Assembly: GCA_030428885.1 (NCBI GenBank)
Contig: JAUIEJ010000010.1
Location: forward strand, 124,001 to 188,000
DNA length: 64,000 bases
Direction of reading: 5' to 3'
Source of the DNA: Gemmatimonadota bacterium
GTDB lineage: Bacteria; Gemmatimonadota; Gemmatimonadetes; Longimicrobiales; Gaopeijiaceae
Below are positions 27,460 to 58,185 of this stretch, in pieces. The translations under genes were made by a program, and so were the position numbers. The notes beneath the pieces were generated by a model. The model saw only the letters and a list, made by a program, of their open reading frames with translations. It did not search any database and was not told where the DNA came from. Positions within the stretch are counted from its first letter, which is position 1; every line of letters begins with the position of its first letter.

Positions 27460-27533
27460 CGTCCAGGGTCGTCGCCGCCCGTGCTGCGGCGGCCCAGACC
27501 CCCGGCGGCGGACCCGTACAACCTGGAACGGCG

Positions 27534-27565
27534 AAGGGCCGCCCCGACGAATCGGGACGGCCCTT
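27534..27565. terminator. Stem-loop between convergent genes, likely bidirectional terminator
   Basis: A 14-bp stem (AAGGGCCGCCCCGA against TCGGGACGGCCCTT, one mismatch) with a 4-base loop lies between the ends of the S9 peptidase gene and the convergent cold-shock gene. There is no clear T-run on either side, so termination may be weak or assisted. Confidence 0.5.
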
Positions 27566-27594
27566 CTTCAGGCTGGTTCAGCCTGCGGCGTCGG

Positions 27595-27801
27595 TCAGAC
27601 CACCGACACGTTCTCCGCGGCGGGGCCCTTCTGGCCCTGCACGACGTCGAACTCCACAGTGGCGCCCTCGGCGAGGGTCTTGAACCCGGTGCCCTGAATG
27701 GCGCTGTGGTGGACGAAGCAGTCCTTGCTACCGTCCTCGGGGGTGATGAAGCCGAAGCCCTTCTGGTCGTTGAACCACTTGACGGTTCCCTTGGTACGCA
27801 T
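27595..27801 (-). CDS. Cold-shock protein (CspA family)
   Basis: This 68-residue protein is a typical single cold-shock (OB-fold) domain. RNP1 is [11 protein letters not shown] and RNP2 is [20 protein letters not shown] begins strand 1 and ends-of-domain [10 protein letters not shown] is intact. It binds single-stranded RNA or DNA and melts RNA structure. Length is the family norm. A GAGG ribosome site precedes the ATG by about 10 bases. The upstream 287 bp to the next, divergent gene hold no other gene. A long transcribed leader, common for csp genes, is possible there. Confidence 0.95.
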
Positions 27802-28018
27802 GATCGCGCTCCTCGGTTGTATGCTGGTCGGAGCCTACGATCGAACGTACGTGCCGACAGCCTGTTGCGCGGACACCCGCGCGGTGTGTGGCCACCTGGC
27901 CACCAGCCACGTAGAGGCCCCGGCAGTGAAGATGCCGAAGCCTCTCCTGACCTGGGGTTGCCTCTACGGCATTGGCAGGACATTCGCGGGTATCGGGCCC
28001 GGCGTCAATGGACGCATG

Positions 28019-50843: not shown

Positions 50844-52496
50844 GTGGCCCGCCACCCCCTGGCCGGACAGTCGCCCCCCGACTCCATGCTCGTGGACGTC
50901 GACGCCCTGGTCGACGCCTACACCTCCCGTGTCCCCGACCCGTCGGTGCCCGGCCAACGGGTGTCGTTCGGCACGTCGGGCCACCGGGGCAGCGCCCTGG
51001 ACACCACCTTCAACGAGCACCACATCGTGGCGGTGGTGGAGGCGGTGCGGCGCTACCGGGCGACCCAGGGCATCGACGGTCCCCTCTTCCTGGGCCTGGA
51101 CACCCACGCCCTGTCGGCGCCGGCGGGGCGCACGGCGTTGGAGGTCCTGGGTGCGGCCGGGGTCGACGTCATGGTGGCCCCGGAGGACGGCCCCGACGCC
51201 GGGTTCACCCCGACCCCCGCGGTGTCCCATGCGATCCTGACGTGGAATCGGGACCGCCGCAGCGGCCTGGCCGACGGCATCGTCATCACGCCGTCCCACA
51301 ATCCCCCTCGGGACGGGGGCATCAAATACAACCCGCCCCACGGAGGGCCCGCGGGCACCGACGCCACGCGCTGGATCGAGGACGAGGCCAACGCCCTCCT
51401 GGAAGCGGGGATCGCCGGGGTGCGCCGGATCTCGGTGGACCGGGCTCGGGCCCGGGACACCACCCACGCCCACGACTACATGAGCGCCTACGTCGACGAC
51501 CTGGCGGCCGCGGTGGATCTGGAGGCGGTGCGGGGCGCCGGCGTGCGCCTGGGAGTGGACCCCCTGGGGGGGGCCGGCGTGCATTACTGGGGCCGCATCG
51601 CCGAGCGGTATGGCCTGGATCTCACGGCGGTGGACACGCTCATCGATCCCACCTTCCGCTTCATGAGCGTGGACAGCGACGGGGTGATCCGCATGGATCC
51701 GTCGTCGCCCGACGCCATGCAGCGGCTCCTGACACTCCGGGACTCCTTCGACGTCGCCTTCGCCTGCGACACGGACTACGACCGCCACGGGATCGTCACG
51801 CCCGGGGGCGGGCTGATGCCGGCCAACGACTACCTGTCGACGGCGGTGTGGTACCTGTTCCAGAACCGCCCCGAGTGGGGCGAGGACCGGAAGGTGGGCA
51901 AAACCCTGGTCACCAGCGGAATGGTGGATCGGGTGAGCCGCTCGCTGGGGCGGCGGACGTACGAGGTGCCCGTGGGCTTCAAGTGGTTCGTCGACGGTCT
52001 GGTGGACGGCTCCCTGGGGTTCGTGGGCGAGGAGAGCGCCGGCGCCACCTTCCTGCGCCGGGACGGCCGCCCCTGGACCACCGACAAGGACGGCATCGTG
52101 CTCTGCCTGCTGGCGGCCGAGATCCTGGCCCGCACGGGCCGGGATCCGGCCCAGGTGTACGAGGAGCTGGCCGAGCGGTTCGGCCGGCCGACCTACCGGC
52201 GACTCTCGGCACCGGCCACCGCCGAGCAGAAGGCCCGGCTCAAGTCGCTGGACGCGTCGGATCTCCACCTCACCGAAGTGGGAGGCCAACCCATCGAGTC
52301 GGTCCTCACCCACGCCCCGGGGAACGGGGCCGCCATCGGCGGCTTGAAGGTCACCACCGCCGACGCCTGGTTCGCCCTCCGTCCCTCGGGCACCGAGAAC
52401 ATCTACAAGATCTACGTGGAGAGCTTCCTCGGACCCGACCACGTGGACCGGATCGCCGACGCCGTGGGGGGCATCGTCGACGACGTCATGGCGTGA
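50844..52496 (+). CDS. pgm: Alpha-D-phosphohexomutase: phosphoglucomutase
   Basis: The 550-residue enzyme from GTG (VARHPLAGQ...) closely follows bacterial Pgm along its length. FGTSGHRGSALDTTFNEHHI starts domain 1, and the phosphoserine loop is IVITPSHNPPRDGGIKYNPP. The metal loop is ACDTDYDRHG, the sugar-binding loop GEESAGATFLRRDG, and the phosphate-binding loop ARPSGTE-like ALRPSGTENIYKIY. All catalytic residues are present. It interconverts glucose 1- and 6-phosphate and links glycogen, UDP-glucose and cell-surface sugar supply to glycolysis. A GGAG site lies 6 bp before the GTG. Its end overlaps the convergent pseudokinase gene by 11 bp. Confidence 0.95.
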   Translation: MARHPLAGQSPPDSMLVDVDALVDAYTSRVPDPSVPGQRVSFGTSGHRGSALDTTFNEHHIVAVVEAVRRYRATQGIDGPLFLGLDTHALSAPAGRTALEVLGAAGVDVMVAPEDGPDAGFTPTPAVSHAILTWNRDRRSGLADGIVITPSHNPPRDGGIKYNPPHGGPAGTDATRWIEDEANALLEAGIAGVRRISVDRARARDTTHAHDYMSAYVDDLAAAVDLEAVRGAGVRLGVDPLGGAGVHYWGRIAERYGLDLTAVDTLIDPTFRFMSVDSDGVIRMDPSSPDAMQRLLTLRDSFDVAFACDTDYDRHGIVTPGGGLMPANDYLSTAVWYLFQNRPEWGEDRKVGKTLVTSGMVDRVSRSLGRRTYEVPVGFKWFVDGLVDGSLGFVGEESAGATFLRRDGRPWTTDKDGIVLCLLAAEILARTGRDPAQVYEELAERFGRPTYRRLSAPATAEQKARLKSLDASDLHLTEVGGQPIESVLTHAPGNGAAIGGLKVTTADAWFALRPSGTENIYKIYVESFLGPDHVDRIADAVGGIVDDVMA

Positions 52497-53784
52497 ACAC
52501 CGTCTCCTTCGACGTCTCCAACGCTCGGAGCACCGCCTCCCGCTCGGCCTCGGGGCCCGGCGTTCCGTCGCTGCGGCGTGCGCCCCGGGTGAGGATGTGG
52601 AGCCGAAAGAGCCCGCCCAGGGTGGGCAGGCCCAGTTCCCGGCGCGCGCCGTAGGCCACCAGAGCCCGGCGCACGGCCGCGGCTGTGCGGTTCCTCCCGA
52701 CGAACACCCGGCGCACGAGCTTCACCGGATCCTTCGCACGGCGGGGCTCCAGATGGCGGGCGTAGGCCAGGAGGAAGTCGAAGAGATCGCGGGTGGGCAC
52801 GTCGGCGGCGGTGTGGGCCGACCAATCGGCGATGCCCGAGACCCGCCCCTGGTCGAACCGGACCGTATCGGGCCCCAGGGCCCCGTGGGACGGCACCAGG
52901 GGCACGGGGCGGACGTCCAGTCGCTCGCCGAGTTGGACGGCCCAGGGCTGCTCCCCCACCTCGTCGGGGACCAGGGATCCGTCGGCGGCCCCGTCGCTCC
53001 GAAGGGCGTTCTGGAGATCGGCCAGGGTCTCGGCCACCGCCACCAGGTGCTGGGCCATGAGGGAGGGCGAGGGGCGGCGGGGAAGATCCAGGCTCAGCGC
53101 CCGGCCCGGGAGAAACCCCGTGGCCAGGACCTCGACCTTCTCCGAGAGTCGGTGAGCCAGGGGCGCGGGGACCAGCTCCCGCCAGGGCGACGGCAAGGCG
53201 CCCCGCACCGAGGCCAGGGCCCGGGCCTGCCCCACGAGCCCGGATCGCCCCGTCCCCCGGGGACGCACCTGCACCAGGACCAGAGGGTGACGAGCCTCCG
53301 GGCTTCCCCCGCGCCGGCCGAAGCCCACGAGATCGCCCCCGTAGGCGAGACCGGCGGCGGGCTCGGCGAGTTGGTGGACCCGGATCCCCACTCCGGTCAG
53401 CCCGCAGGCCTTGAGGGCGGCTCGAACCTCGGTCCAGACGGCGTCGACCTCCAACGGCCCCGGGGTCCGGGTGCCGAACCGCCGCCGCAGGACCGCCACG
53501 GCGATCCCCTCGAAGCCCCGGTTCAGCGCCGCCAATCCCAGCGACCGCTCCCACCGCTGGCGGCGGCTCGTCATGGGGACGTGATGGCGGAGGATGTGCC
53601 CAAGGGCGACCCGGTCTCCCGGCTCCACCAGGAACCGGCCGAACCGGAGGGGAGCCACGCTGCCCCGCCCGGAGGGAGGCACGACCAGGGGAGCCGCCGA
53701 GGGGGCGGTGGTGCGGATGCGGATCGGATTCCGGGGGGCGCGAGCCTCCCGAACGTCGACGGTGGGTGCGGGAGACGAAGACAC
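52486..53784 (-). CDS. APH-fold (aminoglycoside phosphotransferase-like) protein without catalytic Asp: probable pseudokinase
   Basis: The 432-residue product starts at GTG with a strong GGAGGAG site 5 bp upstream. The second half matches the phosphotransferase (APH) fold. KVEVLATGFLPGRAL and MAQHLVAVAETLADLQNAL are N-lobe/hinge features, SHGALGPDTVRF (H300-F310) stands where HGDLHPGN usually is, and GIADWSAHT has the metal-binding DW at D320. In SHGAL the catalytic Asp is replaced by Ala302 and the Asn is also absent, so ATP phosphate transfer is unlikely. The N-terminal third (to about 190) has no clear family. The leader contains a candidate GEMM-type riboswitch. Confidence 0.68.
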   Translation of the reverse strand: MSSSPAPTVDVREARAPRNPIRIRTTAPSAAPLVVPPSGRGSVAPLRFGRFLVEPGDRVALGHILRHHVPMTSRRQRWERSLGLAALNRGFEGIAVAVLRRRFGTRTPGPLEVDAVWTEVRAALKACGLTGVGIRVHQLAEPAAGLAYGGDLVGFGRRGGSPEARHPLVLVQVRPRGTGRSGLVGQARALASVRGALPSPWRELVPAPLAHRLSEKVEVLATGFLPGRALSLDLPRRPSPSLMAQHLVAVAETLADLQNALRSDGAADGSLVPDEVGEQPWAVQLGERLDVRPVPLVPSHGALGPDTVRFDQGRVSGIADWSAHTAADVPTRDLFDFLLAYARHLEPRRAKDPVKLVRRVFVGRNRTAAAVRRALVAYGARRELGLPTLGGLFRLHILTRGARRSDGTPGPEAEREAVLRALETSKETVFTP

Positions 53785-53827
53785 CAGCTCCTCCGTGCAA
53801 TCAGGGGGGTGCGCTGGCGGCTCGGCA

Positions 53828-53920
53828 GGCGTGGCGCCGCCCCGAAACGTCGGGCGCGGACGCGGTAGCCCCGGGGCTCTGCGTCACCACCTTTCGGTGG
53901 CTTTGCTCTGAGCAGCGGTC
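53828..53920 (-). promoter_or_regulatory. Candidate GEMM-I (cyclic di-GMP / cyclic dinucleotide) riboswitch
   Basis: Read on the minus strand, 53861-53913 gives GAGCAAAGCC, a CCACC/GGTGG stem closed by a GAAA tetraloop, then TGACGCAGAGCC, CCGG and GGCTACCGCG. This follows the GEMM-I core, GCAAA.CC-hairpin(GAAA)-GG.GACGCAAAGCC-stem-GGCUA, nearly base for base. A second GC-rich stem (from about 53828 to 53860) would be the other helix to which the tetraloop docks. The element ends about 40 bases before the pseudokinase GTG, i.e. in its leader. The GGAGGAG ribosome site lies just downstream and could be sequestered or released. A covariance-model score has not been computed. Confidence 0.6.
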
Positions 53921-54750: not shown

Positions 54751-54780
54751 TTGGTGCATGGCGCCCCGCCACCCCATACT
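54751..54780 (+). promoter_or_regulatory. Candidate promoter with leaderless start for the sigma/kinase operon
   Basis: TTGGTG (54751-54756) and CATACT (54775-54780) are 18 bp apart. The GTG at 54788 begins seven bases after the -10 hexamer, so the transcript could start at the codon itself with no ribosome site. The -10 hexamer and spacing match the promoter-like site at 538-566. Confidence 0.45.
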
Positions 54781-54787
54781 TGCGGAC

Positions 54788-55384
54788 GTGACCTCGTCCG
54801 CTTCCCCCCCCGACCCCTCCCCGGAGCGGGTGACGCGCCTCCTCGAGCAGTTGGAGGACGGCGACCGCAGCGCCGTGGACCCGCTCTTCCGGCTGGTCTA
54901 CGACGACCTGCGCCGTCTCGCCCGGGCCGCCATGTCCCGGGAACGCCCGGGCCACACCCTCCAGGCCACCGCGTTGGTGAACGAGGCGTGGCTCAAACTC
55001 GCCGGTGGACGCCCCCCGGCGGCCTCGGGCCGGGAGCACTTCCTGGGCATCGCCGCCCGGGCCATGCGCCAGGTGCTGGTGGACCACGCCCGGAAGCGCA
55101 GCGCGGACCGGCGGGGAGGAGACCGGGTCCGGGTGACCCTGGCCGCGGCCGACGGGCCCGCCGACGGACACGATCCCCACGAGATCCTGGCCCTGGACCG
55201 GGCCCTGGACGAGTTGGACGCCGTGGATCCGCGCCTGCGCCAGGTGGTGGAGTACCGGTACTTCGCCGGCCTCACCGACGATGAGATCGCCGGACTCCTG
55301 GGCGTCACCCGACGCACCGTGCTCCGGGACTGGGCCAAGGCCCGCGCCTGGCTCAACAAGGCTCTCTCCGACGACGGGTCGTGA
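54788..55384 (+). CDS. TIGR02999-type ECF sigma factor
   Basis: From GTG the protein has 198 residues. It carries the features of the TIGR02999 (ECF, SigA-like subfamily) sigma factors: ERVTRLLEQLEDGDRSAVDPLFRLVYDDLRRLARAAMSRERPGHTLQATALVNEAWLKL, then EHFLGIAARAMRQVLVDHARKRSADRRGG and the region 4 helix-turn-helix YFAGLTDDEIAGLLGVTRRTVLRDWAKARAWL. An ATG 30 bases earlier (54758) is possible but would overlap the proposed promoter. The stop overlaps the kinase GTG by 4 bp. Such sigma/kinase pairs suggest that the kinase regulates, or is regulated by, the sigma factor. Confidence 0.9.
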   Translation: MTSSASPPDPSPERVTRLLEQLEDGDRSAVDPLFRLVYDDLRRLARAAMSRERPGHTLQATALVNEAWLKLAGGRPPAASGREHFLGIAARAMRQVLVDHARKRSADRRGGDRVRVTLAAADGPADGHDPHEILALDRALDELDAVDPRLRQVVEYRYFAGLTDDEIAGLLGVTRRTVLRDWAKARAWLNKALSDDGS

Positions 55385-58185
55385 GCGCCGACGAGCGTCA
55401 GGACCGGATCTGGGACCTCTTCGAGGCGTCGCTGGACCACGCCCCGGACGAACGCCGGGCGTGGCTGCGGGACGCCGAATCCGACCCCGAGATCGTGGCC
55501 GAGGTGGAGGGCCTCCTGGACGGTCACGAAACCGAAGGGGGACTCCTGGATCGGCCCGTGCCCCTTCCCCCGTCGGGCACCGAGCCCGATGACGACACCG
55601 CCATGGAGGCGCGGGTCCGAGCCGTCTTCGAGGGCACCTACGGCCTCGTGCGGGAGCTGGGACGGGGCGGGATGTCGCGGGTCTACCTCGCCTGGGAGCG
55701 GAAGCACCAGCGGCGGGTCGTCCTGAAGGTGCTCCGGCCCGAGGTGGCCGCGGGCACCGGGGCGGAGCGCTTCGCCCGGGAAGCCCGCCTGGTGGCCCGT
55801 CTCTCCCACCCGAACGTCGTGCCCCTCATCGACTCGGGCGTGCGGGAGGGGCTGGCCTACTACGTCATGCCCTACATCGACGGCCTGTCGCTTCGAGACC
55901 GGCTGACGGGACTGGACGGGGGACTGCCCCTGGACGGGGCTCTCGCCGTGCTGCGGAACGTGGCGGCCGCCCTGGACTTCGCCCACGTGGCCGGGGTGGT
56001 GCATCGGGATCTCAAGCCCGACAACGTCCTCCTGGCCGGGCCCCACGCGTACCTCTTCGACTTCGGCATCGCCCGGGCCTCCACCGGGCCGGGGGGCGTG
56101 GACGCCGAAGGGACGGTCCTGACTCGGGAGGGAGCGTTCCTGGGCACCCCGGGCTACGCCGCCCCGGAGCAGTTGTGGGGTGGAGCGACCCTGGACCACC
56201 GGGCCGACCTCTGGGCCTGGGGCGTGTTGGCGTGGGAGGTCCTCACCGGCGAACTCCCTCCCAACCCCGCCGACCCTCTGGCGGGAGGGCACACCGCCCT
56301 GGACGAAGGACTCGTGGCCCGGCGGCCCGGCGTGCCCCCCGAGGTGGCCCGCATCGTGGCCCGCTGCCTCGAACTCGACCCGGCCCGCCGCCCCGAGAGC
56401 GCCGCCGACCTCCTGGACGCCCTGGGGGCCGGGGCCGAGGCCGCACCTCGCGATGCCCCGTCCCGATCCGGCTCCCGGTGGGGGGGGATCGGTGTGGGTG
56501 TGGGCGCGGTGGCGGTGATCGCCGCCGCGGCGGTGGTCCTGCAGGATCGGCGCGACGCCGGGGCCGCCGGATCGGGCGGGCCCCTGGGACTCCCGGTGGC
56601 CGTCGCCCCCTTCGAGGCGTCGGGAGACGACCCGGGACTCGCCCTCCTGGGGCGTTTCGCCGGCGACTGGGTCACCCAGGGCATCCAGGACCTGGACGGT
56701 CTCGCCGTTGTGCCCTGGCCCGCTTCGGTGGGAGCCGCCGGCGACCGGCGAGAAGCCGAGGACGTGCTGGCCGCCGTGATCCGGGGCACGGGGGCCGGGA
56801 CGGTGGTGGTGGGGTCGATCTACGCCCTGGACGACCGCCTGCGCTTCCGCGCCGAGGTCGTGGACGCCGCCACGGGGCTGGTGTTGTCGGCGCCCGAACC
56901 GGTATCGTCGTCTCCCGATTCGGCCGAGACGGCCTTGGGCGTGCTGGTGGACCGGATCCGGACGAGCCTCGCCATCGCCGGCGACGAACGCCTGGCGGCC
57001 ATTCCGGGGCTCGCCCGGCACCCGCCGTCGTTCGAGGCGTACCGGGCCTTCGACCAGGGCATGGAGCTCTACCTCGCCCAGGAGTACTCCGACGCCACCG
57101 AGGCCTTCCAGACGGCGTGGCAGCGGGACACCACCTTCCACTCCGCCCTGGTCTACGCTGCGGCCACCGCGCTGAACACCGGCGACCCGACGACGGCCGA
57201 CGACGCTCTGGACCGGGTCGAGCCCTACGTGGCCACGCTGAGCACGCCGGAGCGGGCTCGGTGGGAGGCCATGCGCGCCGTGGCCGACGGCGACAGCCCC
57301 CGGGCGCTGCGAGCCATGATGCGCCTCGCCGAGACCGGACCGGGGTCCCGGGCGCCGTACAACGTGGCCCGGTTGGCCCTGGCCATGAACCGCCCCGAAG
57401 ACGCGTTGGCGGCGCTGGAATCCGCCGACCCCGATCGGGGCGAACTCCGGGGCTGGGCCCAGTACTGGACCCAGCTCGCCCACGCCCGCCACGTCCTGGG
57501 CGACTTCGAGGGCGAAGCCGCCGCCGCCGCCGAAATGCGTCGTCGGTACCCGGAGCGCCGGGTGGCCCTGGTCCTGGAGGTCCGGGCACGGGCCGCCCAG
57601 GGACGCTTCGACGACGTGGACCGCCTGCTGGATCTGGCCGAGACCCTGGCGCCCGAGACCTATTGGTCGGCGGGGGCGGCGGCGGTGGTGGGAGCCGAGG
57701 CCGCCCGGGCCCACGGTCACGAGACCGCATGGCCGGATCTTCTGGCCCGGGGCGAGGCCTGGCTCGACACCCGACTGTCGGCGGCCCCGGAGTACAGGAG
57801 CCACCGCTACTGGCGAGCCAGCGCCGCCTACGACGCCCGGGCGTGGACCGAGGCCCGGGAACGGTTCGGGGCGCTCCTGGACGAGGTGCCCGACAACGAC
57901 ACCTACCGGGGCATGACGGCGCTGGCGGCGGGGCATGCCGGCGACACGGCCACGGCCCGAGCCCTTCTCGAGGAGACCTTTCCCGGCGGTCCGGGCGAAC
58001 ACACCGCCTATCGGGCGCGCCTGGCGGCGCTCCAGGGCGACGCCGACGAAACCGCCGCCCTCCTGGGCCTCGCATTCGCCCAGGGGGTGAACGGGTGGGC
58101 GTGGATCCACGAGTCGGGGTACGACGACTTCGCACCCGTGGGCTCCGACCCCCGGATCGCCAGGCTGGTCCCGGCGCGGTATTGA
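55381..58185 (+). CDS. Transmembrane Ser/Thr protein kinase with C-terminal repeat region
   Basis: The 934-residue protein is translationally coupled to the sigma factor (GTGA). Kinase motifs are LGRGGMSRVY (glycine loop), K116 in VVLKVL, catalytic HRDLKPDN (208-215), DFG (227-229) and APEQLWGG. A membrane helix lies at about 369-387 (WGGIGVGVGAVAVIAAAAVV). The exported part (about 390-934) begins with a TolB-like N-terminal segment (LGLPVAVAPFEASGDDPGLALLGRFAGDWVTQGI, VVVGSIYALDDRLRFRAEVVDAATG) and continues with helical TPR-like repeats (YSDATEAFQTAWQRDTTFHSALVYAAATAL...). All catalytic residues are present. The kinase at 13433 has a similar layout but without the TolB-like part. Confidence 0.92.
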   Translation: MSADERQDRIWDLFEASLDHAPDERRAWLRDAESDPEIVAEVEGLLDGHETEGGLLDRPVPLPPSGTEPDDDTAMEARVRAVFEGTYGLVRELGRGGMSRVYLAWERKHQRRVVLKVLRPEVAAGTGAERFAREARLVARLSHPNVVPLIDSGVREGLAYYVMPYIDGLSLRDRLTGLDGGLPLDGALAVLRNVAAALDFAHVAGVVHRDLKPDNVLLAGPHAYLFDFGIARASTGPGGVDAEGTVLTREGAFLGTPGYAAPEQLWGGATLDHRADLWAWGVLAWEVLTGELPPNPADPLAGGHTALDEGLVARRPGVPPEVARIVARCLELDPARRPESAADLLDALGAGAEAAPRDAPSRSGSRWGGIGVGVGAVAVIAAAAVVLQDRRDAGAAGSGGPLGLPVAVAPFEASGDDPGLALLGRFAGDWVTQGIQDLDGLAVVPWPASVGAAGDRREAEDVLAAVIRGTGAGTVVVGSIYALDDRLRFRAEVVDAATGLVLSAPEPVSSSPDSAETALGVLVDRIRTSLAIAGDERLAAIPGLARHPPSFEAYRAFDQGMELYLAQEYSDATEAFQTAWQRDTTFHSALVYAAATALNTGDPTTADDALDRVEPYVATLSTPERARWEAMRAVADGDSPRALRAMMRLAETGPGSRAPYNVARLALAMNRPEDALAALESADPDRGELRGWAQYWTQLAHARHVLGDFEGEAAAAAEMRRRYPERRVALVLEVRARAAQGRFDDVDRLLDLAETLAPETYWSAGAAAVVGAEAARAHGHETAWPDLLARGEAWLDTRLSAAPEYRSHRYWRASAAYDARAWTEARERFGALLDEVPDNDTYRGMTALAAGHAGDTATARALLEETFPGGPGEHTAYRARLAALQGDADETAALLGLAFAQGVNGWAWIHESGYDDFAPVGSDPRIARLVPARY

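Follow-up and report, generated by a model that had tools for sequence, protein, structure and literature searches.

Does the minus-strand leader of an open reading frame at 52486..53784 carry a cyclic dinucleotide riboswitch? If so, which ligand would it sense, and how would it act on its gene? The window, that is, the whole stretch of 64,000 nucleotides analysed here, belongs to a Gemmatimonadota genome of 5.39 Mb (95% complete). We examined the aptamer, its binding pocket, the cyclases of its host, the leader and the downstream protein.

Identification and boundaries of the aptamer

The original prediction proposed a GEMM-I riboswitch from short motifs, all of which a sequence check finds on the minus strand. 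The covariance search (Rfam cmscan) gives it a significant score. It matches RF01051 (c-di-GMP-I, GEMM-I) at 53917-53813 minus with 43.4 bits and an E-value of 3.6e-5, over a gathering score of 35 bits. The match spans the full model (1-87) and is the only one above any gathering score in the 64-kb window. The minus-strand element upstream of the 432-aa gene is a genuine GEMM-I aptamer of the known family RF01051.

With the P1 ends added from the analysis of P1 pairing, the aptamer occupies 53812..53917 (minus, as all parts that follow) and belongs to a subtype that we call A20/G48. The P1 helix joins the 5' strand CGCUG (53913..53917) to the 3' strand CAGCG (53812..53816), both placed by the pair counts across A20 loci. 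The P2 hairpin, GCCACC-GAAA-GGUGGU, covers 53886..53901 in the cmscan alignment and in the folds, with its GAAA loop at 53895-53892. The P3 arm, a long variable hairpin, is aligned at 53821..53877. The intercalating A47 is at 53880 and is followed by G at position 48 (53879), where G20-type aptamers have A48. The equivalent of C92, the predicted partner of the ligand guanine, is at 53817 according to cmscan and the P1 analysis (numbering of PMC6274999). The alignment thus contains the structural features of RF01051: P1, P2 with a GNRA loop, P3, A47, and C92. In stability, the window folds do not stand out clearly from shuffled sequence (z -1.09), so fold energy was left out as evidence for the aptamer.

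The interval first proposed, 53828-53920, is in the right place. However, it is about 15 nt short at its 3' end and leaves out the P1 3' strand and the ligand-pairing C at 53817. Likewise, the Shine-Dalgarno sequence GGAGGAG is present downstream (53788..53794), but 18 nt from the last P1 base (53812) and not about 40.

The core was also searched for in one-per-species genomes as AGAGCAAA-N6-GAAAG-N5-GACGCAGAGC, a pattern of 23 fixed bases for which exact matches alone were counted. It occurs at 114 loci at least, mostly in Gemmatimonadota. Among the matches listed, the exact A20/G48 core is also found in Nitrospirota (including Manganitrophus, which is rich in GEMM-I copies), Eisenbacteria, and others. 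P1 pairs 1 to 5 are formed in 105, 105, 101, 95, and 85 of 111 A20 loci. Pairs 3 and 4 alternate among C-G, U-A, and A-U, and beyond the five pairs the pairing declines further out. Because so many loci match exactly and P1 forms with compensatory changes in most of them, the core is no chance match.

The copy in the window could be a degenerate relic that has lost ligand binding and keeps a leader hairpin. Its score is the lowest of the three RF01051 copies of the genome (64.9, 52.1, and 43.4 bits), P3 has two non-standard pairs, and most of the genus is without the target gene. Nevertheless, this copy preserves the junction residues A18, A20, A47, and C92, together with the GAAA loop and each of the five P1 pairs, and we consider a relic quite improbable. 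The window RNA is probably a switch for a cyclic dinucleotide, cGAMP or c-di-GMP.

A pocket variant with A20 and G48

Position 20 in Vc2 numbering is the base just 5' of P2 (PMC6274999, PMC7288161). It is a published selectivity factor between cyclic dinucleotides, although not a hard filter (PMC9262584). c-di-GMP aptamers have G here, and the Geobacter cGAMP aptamer has A (A14; PMC6274999). The window aptamer has the A of the GEMM-Ib type, at 53907 (cmscan column 11). The original prediction overlooked this base, which bears on the ligand, and also the likely sequestration of the start codon described below.

In the same genome, a second copy (L002) also has A20, and the third (L001) has G20. 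RF01051 copies are present in 23 of the 116 genomes of the bacterial family, and most of them are A20/G48. All family aptamers with the usual scaffold and A20 read GCAGA (G48), while those with G20 read GCAAA (A48). The pocket search across the phylum tolerated two mismatches and therefore would have favoured mixed types. Among the matches listed, many were A20/G48, about 25 were G20/A48, two were A20/A48 (G336, G385), and none was clearly G20/G48. We found no description of A20/G48 in the literature searched. It appears to be a new pocket variant of RF01051, common in Gemmatimonadota.

Compared with Vibrio cholerae Vc2 (RF01051), the window aptamer shares the fold, the GAAA-loop hairpin, the top P1 pair G-C, A18, A47, C92, and the G21-C46 pair. 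It differs in A20 instead of G20 and G48 instead of A48. In its A20 it resembles the laboratory mutant G20A of Vc2, which binds cGAMP (PMC6274999, PMC7288161). With the Geobacter GEMM-Ib cGAMP riboswitches (pilM, pgcA), the common traits are the GEMM-I fold, A20, ON logic using the aptamer 3' strand with its ligand-pairing C, and targets related to surface structures. In contrast, the first P2 pair of the window aptamer is G-C, like that of Vc2, position 48 is G, the control seems translational, and the target is APH-like. The c-di-GMP-I-GGC variants (RF03167) belong to the same Rfam clan and are found in this bacterial family too (L007, L018). However, they conserve other bases around P2 and the P2 loop, and the best clan match of the window is RF01051.

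Cyclases and the ligand

Geobacter makes cGAMP with Hypr GGDEFs, in which Ser takes the place of the Asp that reads guanine and the motif is GGDE[F/Y] (PMC6456294). A DNA pattern for Ser/Thr-GGDEFs, G[HY]xxG[ST]-x23-GGDE, was run over 395 Gemmatimonadota genomes. The Ser-GGDEF matches form a coherent family, typically DLDGLKKINDRHGHLVGS...RFGGDEF. These Hypr-type cyclases are found in another Gemmatimonadota family, f4, and its kin (L273-L296, L298, L299). By eye, the hydrophobic N-terminal half of L293 resembles a MASE1 sensor. Matches in G099, G100:C69, and G183, and at L300, were rejected, as their translations are not GGDEF domains.

In family f4, 25 genomes have both the A20 aptamer and a Ser-GGDEF, 7 the aptamer only, 2 the cyclase only, and 47 neither (genome handles transcribed by hand). 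The Fisher test gives p = 1.7e-12 when species are counted, although these are not independent, and 0.002 by genus. Of the 36 GGDEF matches in Manganitrophus, at least two are Ser-GGDEFs.

The order of the window, Longimicrobiales, is different. All six GGDEFs of the window genome have Asp at the specificity position, so it is without the Ser/Thr-GGDEF expected, though not strictly defining, for GEMM-Ib. A SMODS cyclase was searched for in this genome and not found. For both reasons, no cGAMP synthase is known in it. One of its GGDEFs (L157) was considered as an ortholog of the f4 Ser-GGDEF and rejected, since the two are not similar beyond the GGDEF domain. In five other A20-positive genomes of the order, every GGDEF that could be read has Asp, bar one degenerate Asn domain. 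A wider pattern applied to 154 Longimicrobiales found Ser-GGDEFs in just G100, G077, and G084; of these, G084 alone has an A20 aptamer. GGDEF-like sequences with Asn at the base-specificity position were seen in six Longimicrobiales genomes where the A20 aptamer was not found (G036, G042, G006, G108, G003, and G072).

A20 points to cGAMP, and the enzyme inventory points to c-di-GMP. The aptamer, though real, may instead sense c-di-GMP; A20 would accommodate guanine by being protonated, and c-di-GMP would be what the host's only cyclases make. The Asp-type GGDEFs of this genome favour this reading, and so does the finding that, among the A20-positive Longimicrobiales genomes, only G084 shows a Ser-GGDEF. 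For cGAMP aptamers, binding of c-di-GMP with a protonated adenine has been reported (PMC9262584), and the lower P2 pair of the window is G-C, like Vc2. On the other hand, the A20 core co-occurs with Ser-GGDEF cyclases in f4 and Manganitrophus, and the genome keeps the G20-type L001, from which sensing of c-di-GMP would be expected. We regard sensing of c-di-GMP as a substantial possibility, short of an even chance. Since cGAMP aptamers bind both dinucleotides, both were kept as candidates. We infer that the ligand in the window is 3',3'-cGAMP, with a little better than an even chance, or c-di-GMP, with somewhat less than one.

L001 (G000:C2:459809-459888) precedes a 327-aa membrane-type protein without a Pfam match, and L006 seems to have a leader and a gene like these.

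A further reading is that A20/G48 forms a subclass of its own, in which the two pocket changes are linked, and that in Longimicrobiales it responds to cGAMP, or another mixed cyclic dinucleotide, from an enzyme that is neither a recognised Hypr GGDEF nor a SMODS cyclase. If so, the genome of the window would hold an unknown synthase; we find this rather doubtful. The two groups offer a natural test of the meaning of A20. Family f4 pairs the aptamer with Ser-GGDEFs, and Longimicrobiales keep it almost without them. These findings point towards cGAMP-type signalling by RNA in the Gemmatimonadota, most of which are uncultured, with Ig-like surface proteins as its regulon. Our literature searches found no report of such signalling in this phylum.

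Switching mechanism

At 79 of 108 A20 loci, the aptamer 3' strand (GGCCGCCAGC) is the 5' arm of a terminator. This helix, with a median of 11 bp, pairs the 3' strand with a downstream segment and is followed by a T-rich tail. Ligand binding should therefore prevent termination, giving an ON switch. The pilM cGAMP riboswitch of Geobacter has the same ON logic, and there too the ligand-pairing C is taken up by the terminator (PMC9262584). Three tandem A20 aptamers, about 157 nt apart, were observed upstream of one lipoprotein-like gene (L065:1990-2340, QHVB01000068.1), with terminator-like or switching segments after them. At least two are arranged in the same way at L120.

The window leader has no terminator, and no T-run follows the aptamer. 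The ribosome site is so close to P1 that little room is left for one. The strand CGCCAGC (53813..53819, minus), which includes C92 and the larger part of the P1 3' strand, can form a 7-bp helix with GCUGGUG (53782..53788, minus), which covers the GTG start codon. In free folds of 145-192 nt, this sequestering helix has a probability of 0.98-1.00. Before any ligand energy is counted, it is about 7-10 kcal/mol better than a fold in which P1 and P2 are enforced, in a model that includes neither ligand nor tertiary contacts. Because the aptamer 3' strand can pair over the start codon, the window copy is likely a translational ON switch in these models.

We infer the direction and the translational level of control as follows. 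In the absence of ligand, CGCCAGC (53819-53813) would pair with GCUGGUG (53788-53782) and bury the GUG start beside the Shine-Dalgarno. When a cyclic dinucleotide is bound, its guanine would pair with C92 and its other base would face A20. The 3' strand would then be kept by P1 and P3, and the start codon would be freed.

The 7-bp helix might also be coincidental, with a real aptamer that does not act through the start codon. An equal helix appears in 4% of shuffled downstream sequences, and most relatives use terminators. The longest construct, with 60 nt upstream and 40 nt downstream added, does not favour the helix (P 0.08). However, the missing T-run and the 18 nt between P1 and the ribosome site argue against this explanation. 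L154, an A20 locus without a terminator, seems to set its start codon opposite the aptamer 3' strand too. A coincidental helix is thus unlikely in our judgement. In constrained aptamer folds the start codon is still mostly paired (unpaired 0-0.26), and no sigma-70 promoter was found for the window leader. The combined reading, an A20/G48 GEMM-I riboswitch that works as a translational ON switch in the leader of the 53784-52486 gene, is one we hold with good confidence.

The target gene

The gene predicted to be regulated (52486..53784, minus) has a GTG start and encodes 432 amino acids; the open reading frame and its homologues suggest a probable APH-fold pseudokinase. The protein has no Pfam or NCBIfam match and nothing in a single-sequence PDB search. 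The AlphaFold2 model of the lone protein was discarded as evidence of the fold (pLDDT 35.6). A plasmid search returned short chance matches only.

One close homologue exists in the family (G079, L334; 51% identity). Its gene starts at a contig end, so its contig holds no leader in which the riboswitch could be sought. A distant homologue in G379, with 26-29% identity, matches Pfam APH (PF01636) at 3.7e-7 and has an intact VHGDFRIGNIL motif. Its gene is flanked by those for a polysaccharide flippase and a group-4 glycosyltransferase. The aligned catalytic motif reads HGALGPDT in the window, HGGFGPEN in G079, and HGD in G379, so the catalytic Asp of HxD is Ala in the window protein. With a two-sequence profile, this motif aligns to the catalytic loop of APH(4) (hygromycin-B 4-O-kinase) at an E-value of 0.03. 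The change from HGD to HGA or HGG among bridged homologues makes a phosphotransferase fold without its catalytic base likely, in agreement with the dead phosphotransferase fold first proposed. The target probably adopts an APH fold in which Ala replaces the catalytic Asp. It may serve surface polysaccharide or biofilm functions, the polysaccharide role being suggested by the G379 neighbourhood only.

The A20/G48 subtype is usually located upstream of Ig-like or fibronectin-like surface proteins, and the window target is unlike these. Among 81 proteins downstream of A20 aptamers, Big_2 is present in 50, Big_1 in 44, and fn3 in 20; there are two matches each to PilM and PilZ and one to a sugar transferase. 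L002, in the same genome, lies before the gene of a lipoprotein-like protein that contains fn3 and Big domains. The target is therefore as unusual as had been supposed, since surface Ig-like/fn3 proteins are the commonest ones of the subtype. An N-terminus of the form M(P/T)F..KL..RLA was observed in 28 of 91 proteins after A20 aptamers, often before a lipobox-like cysteine.

Two other features of the window were recorded. An ECF sigma factor gene directly overlaps the gene of a serine/threonine protein kinase that has TPR-like repeats at 54758-58185 (plus), and the pair is transcribed away from the riboswitch gene. At 27533-27885 (minus) there is a sub-threshold match with the cspA thermoregulator RF01766, of 51.8 bits against a gathering score of 78 (E 2.8e-10).
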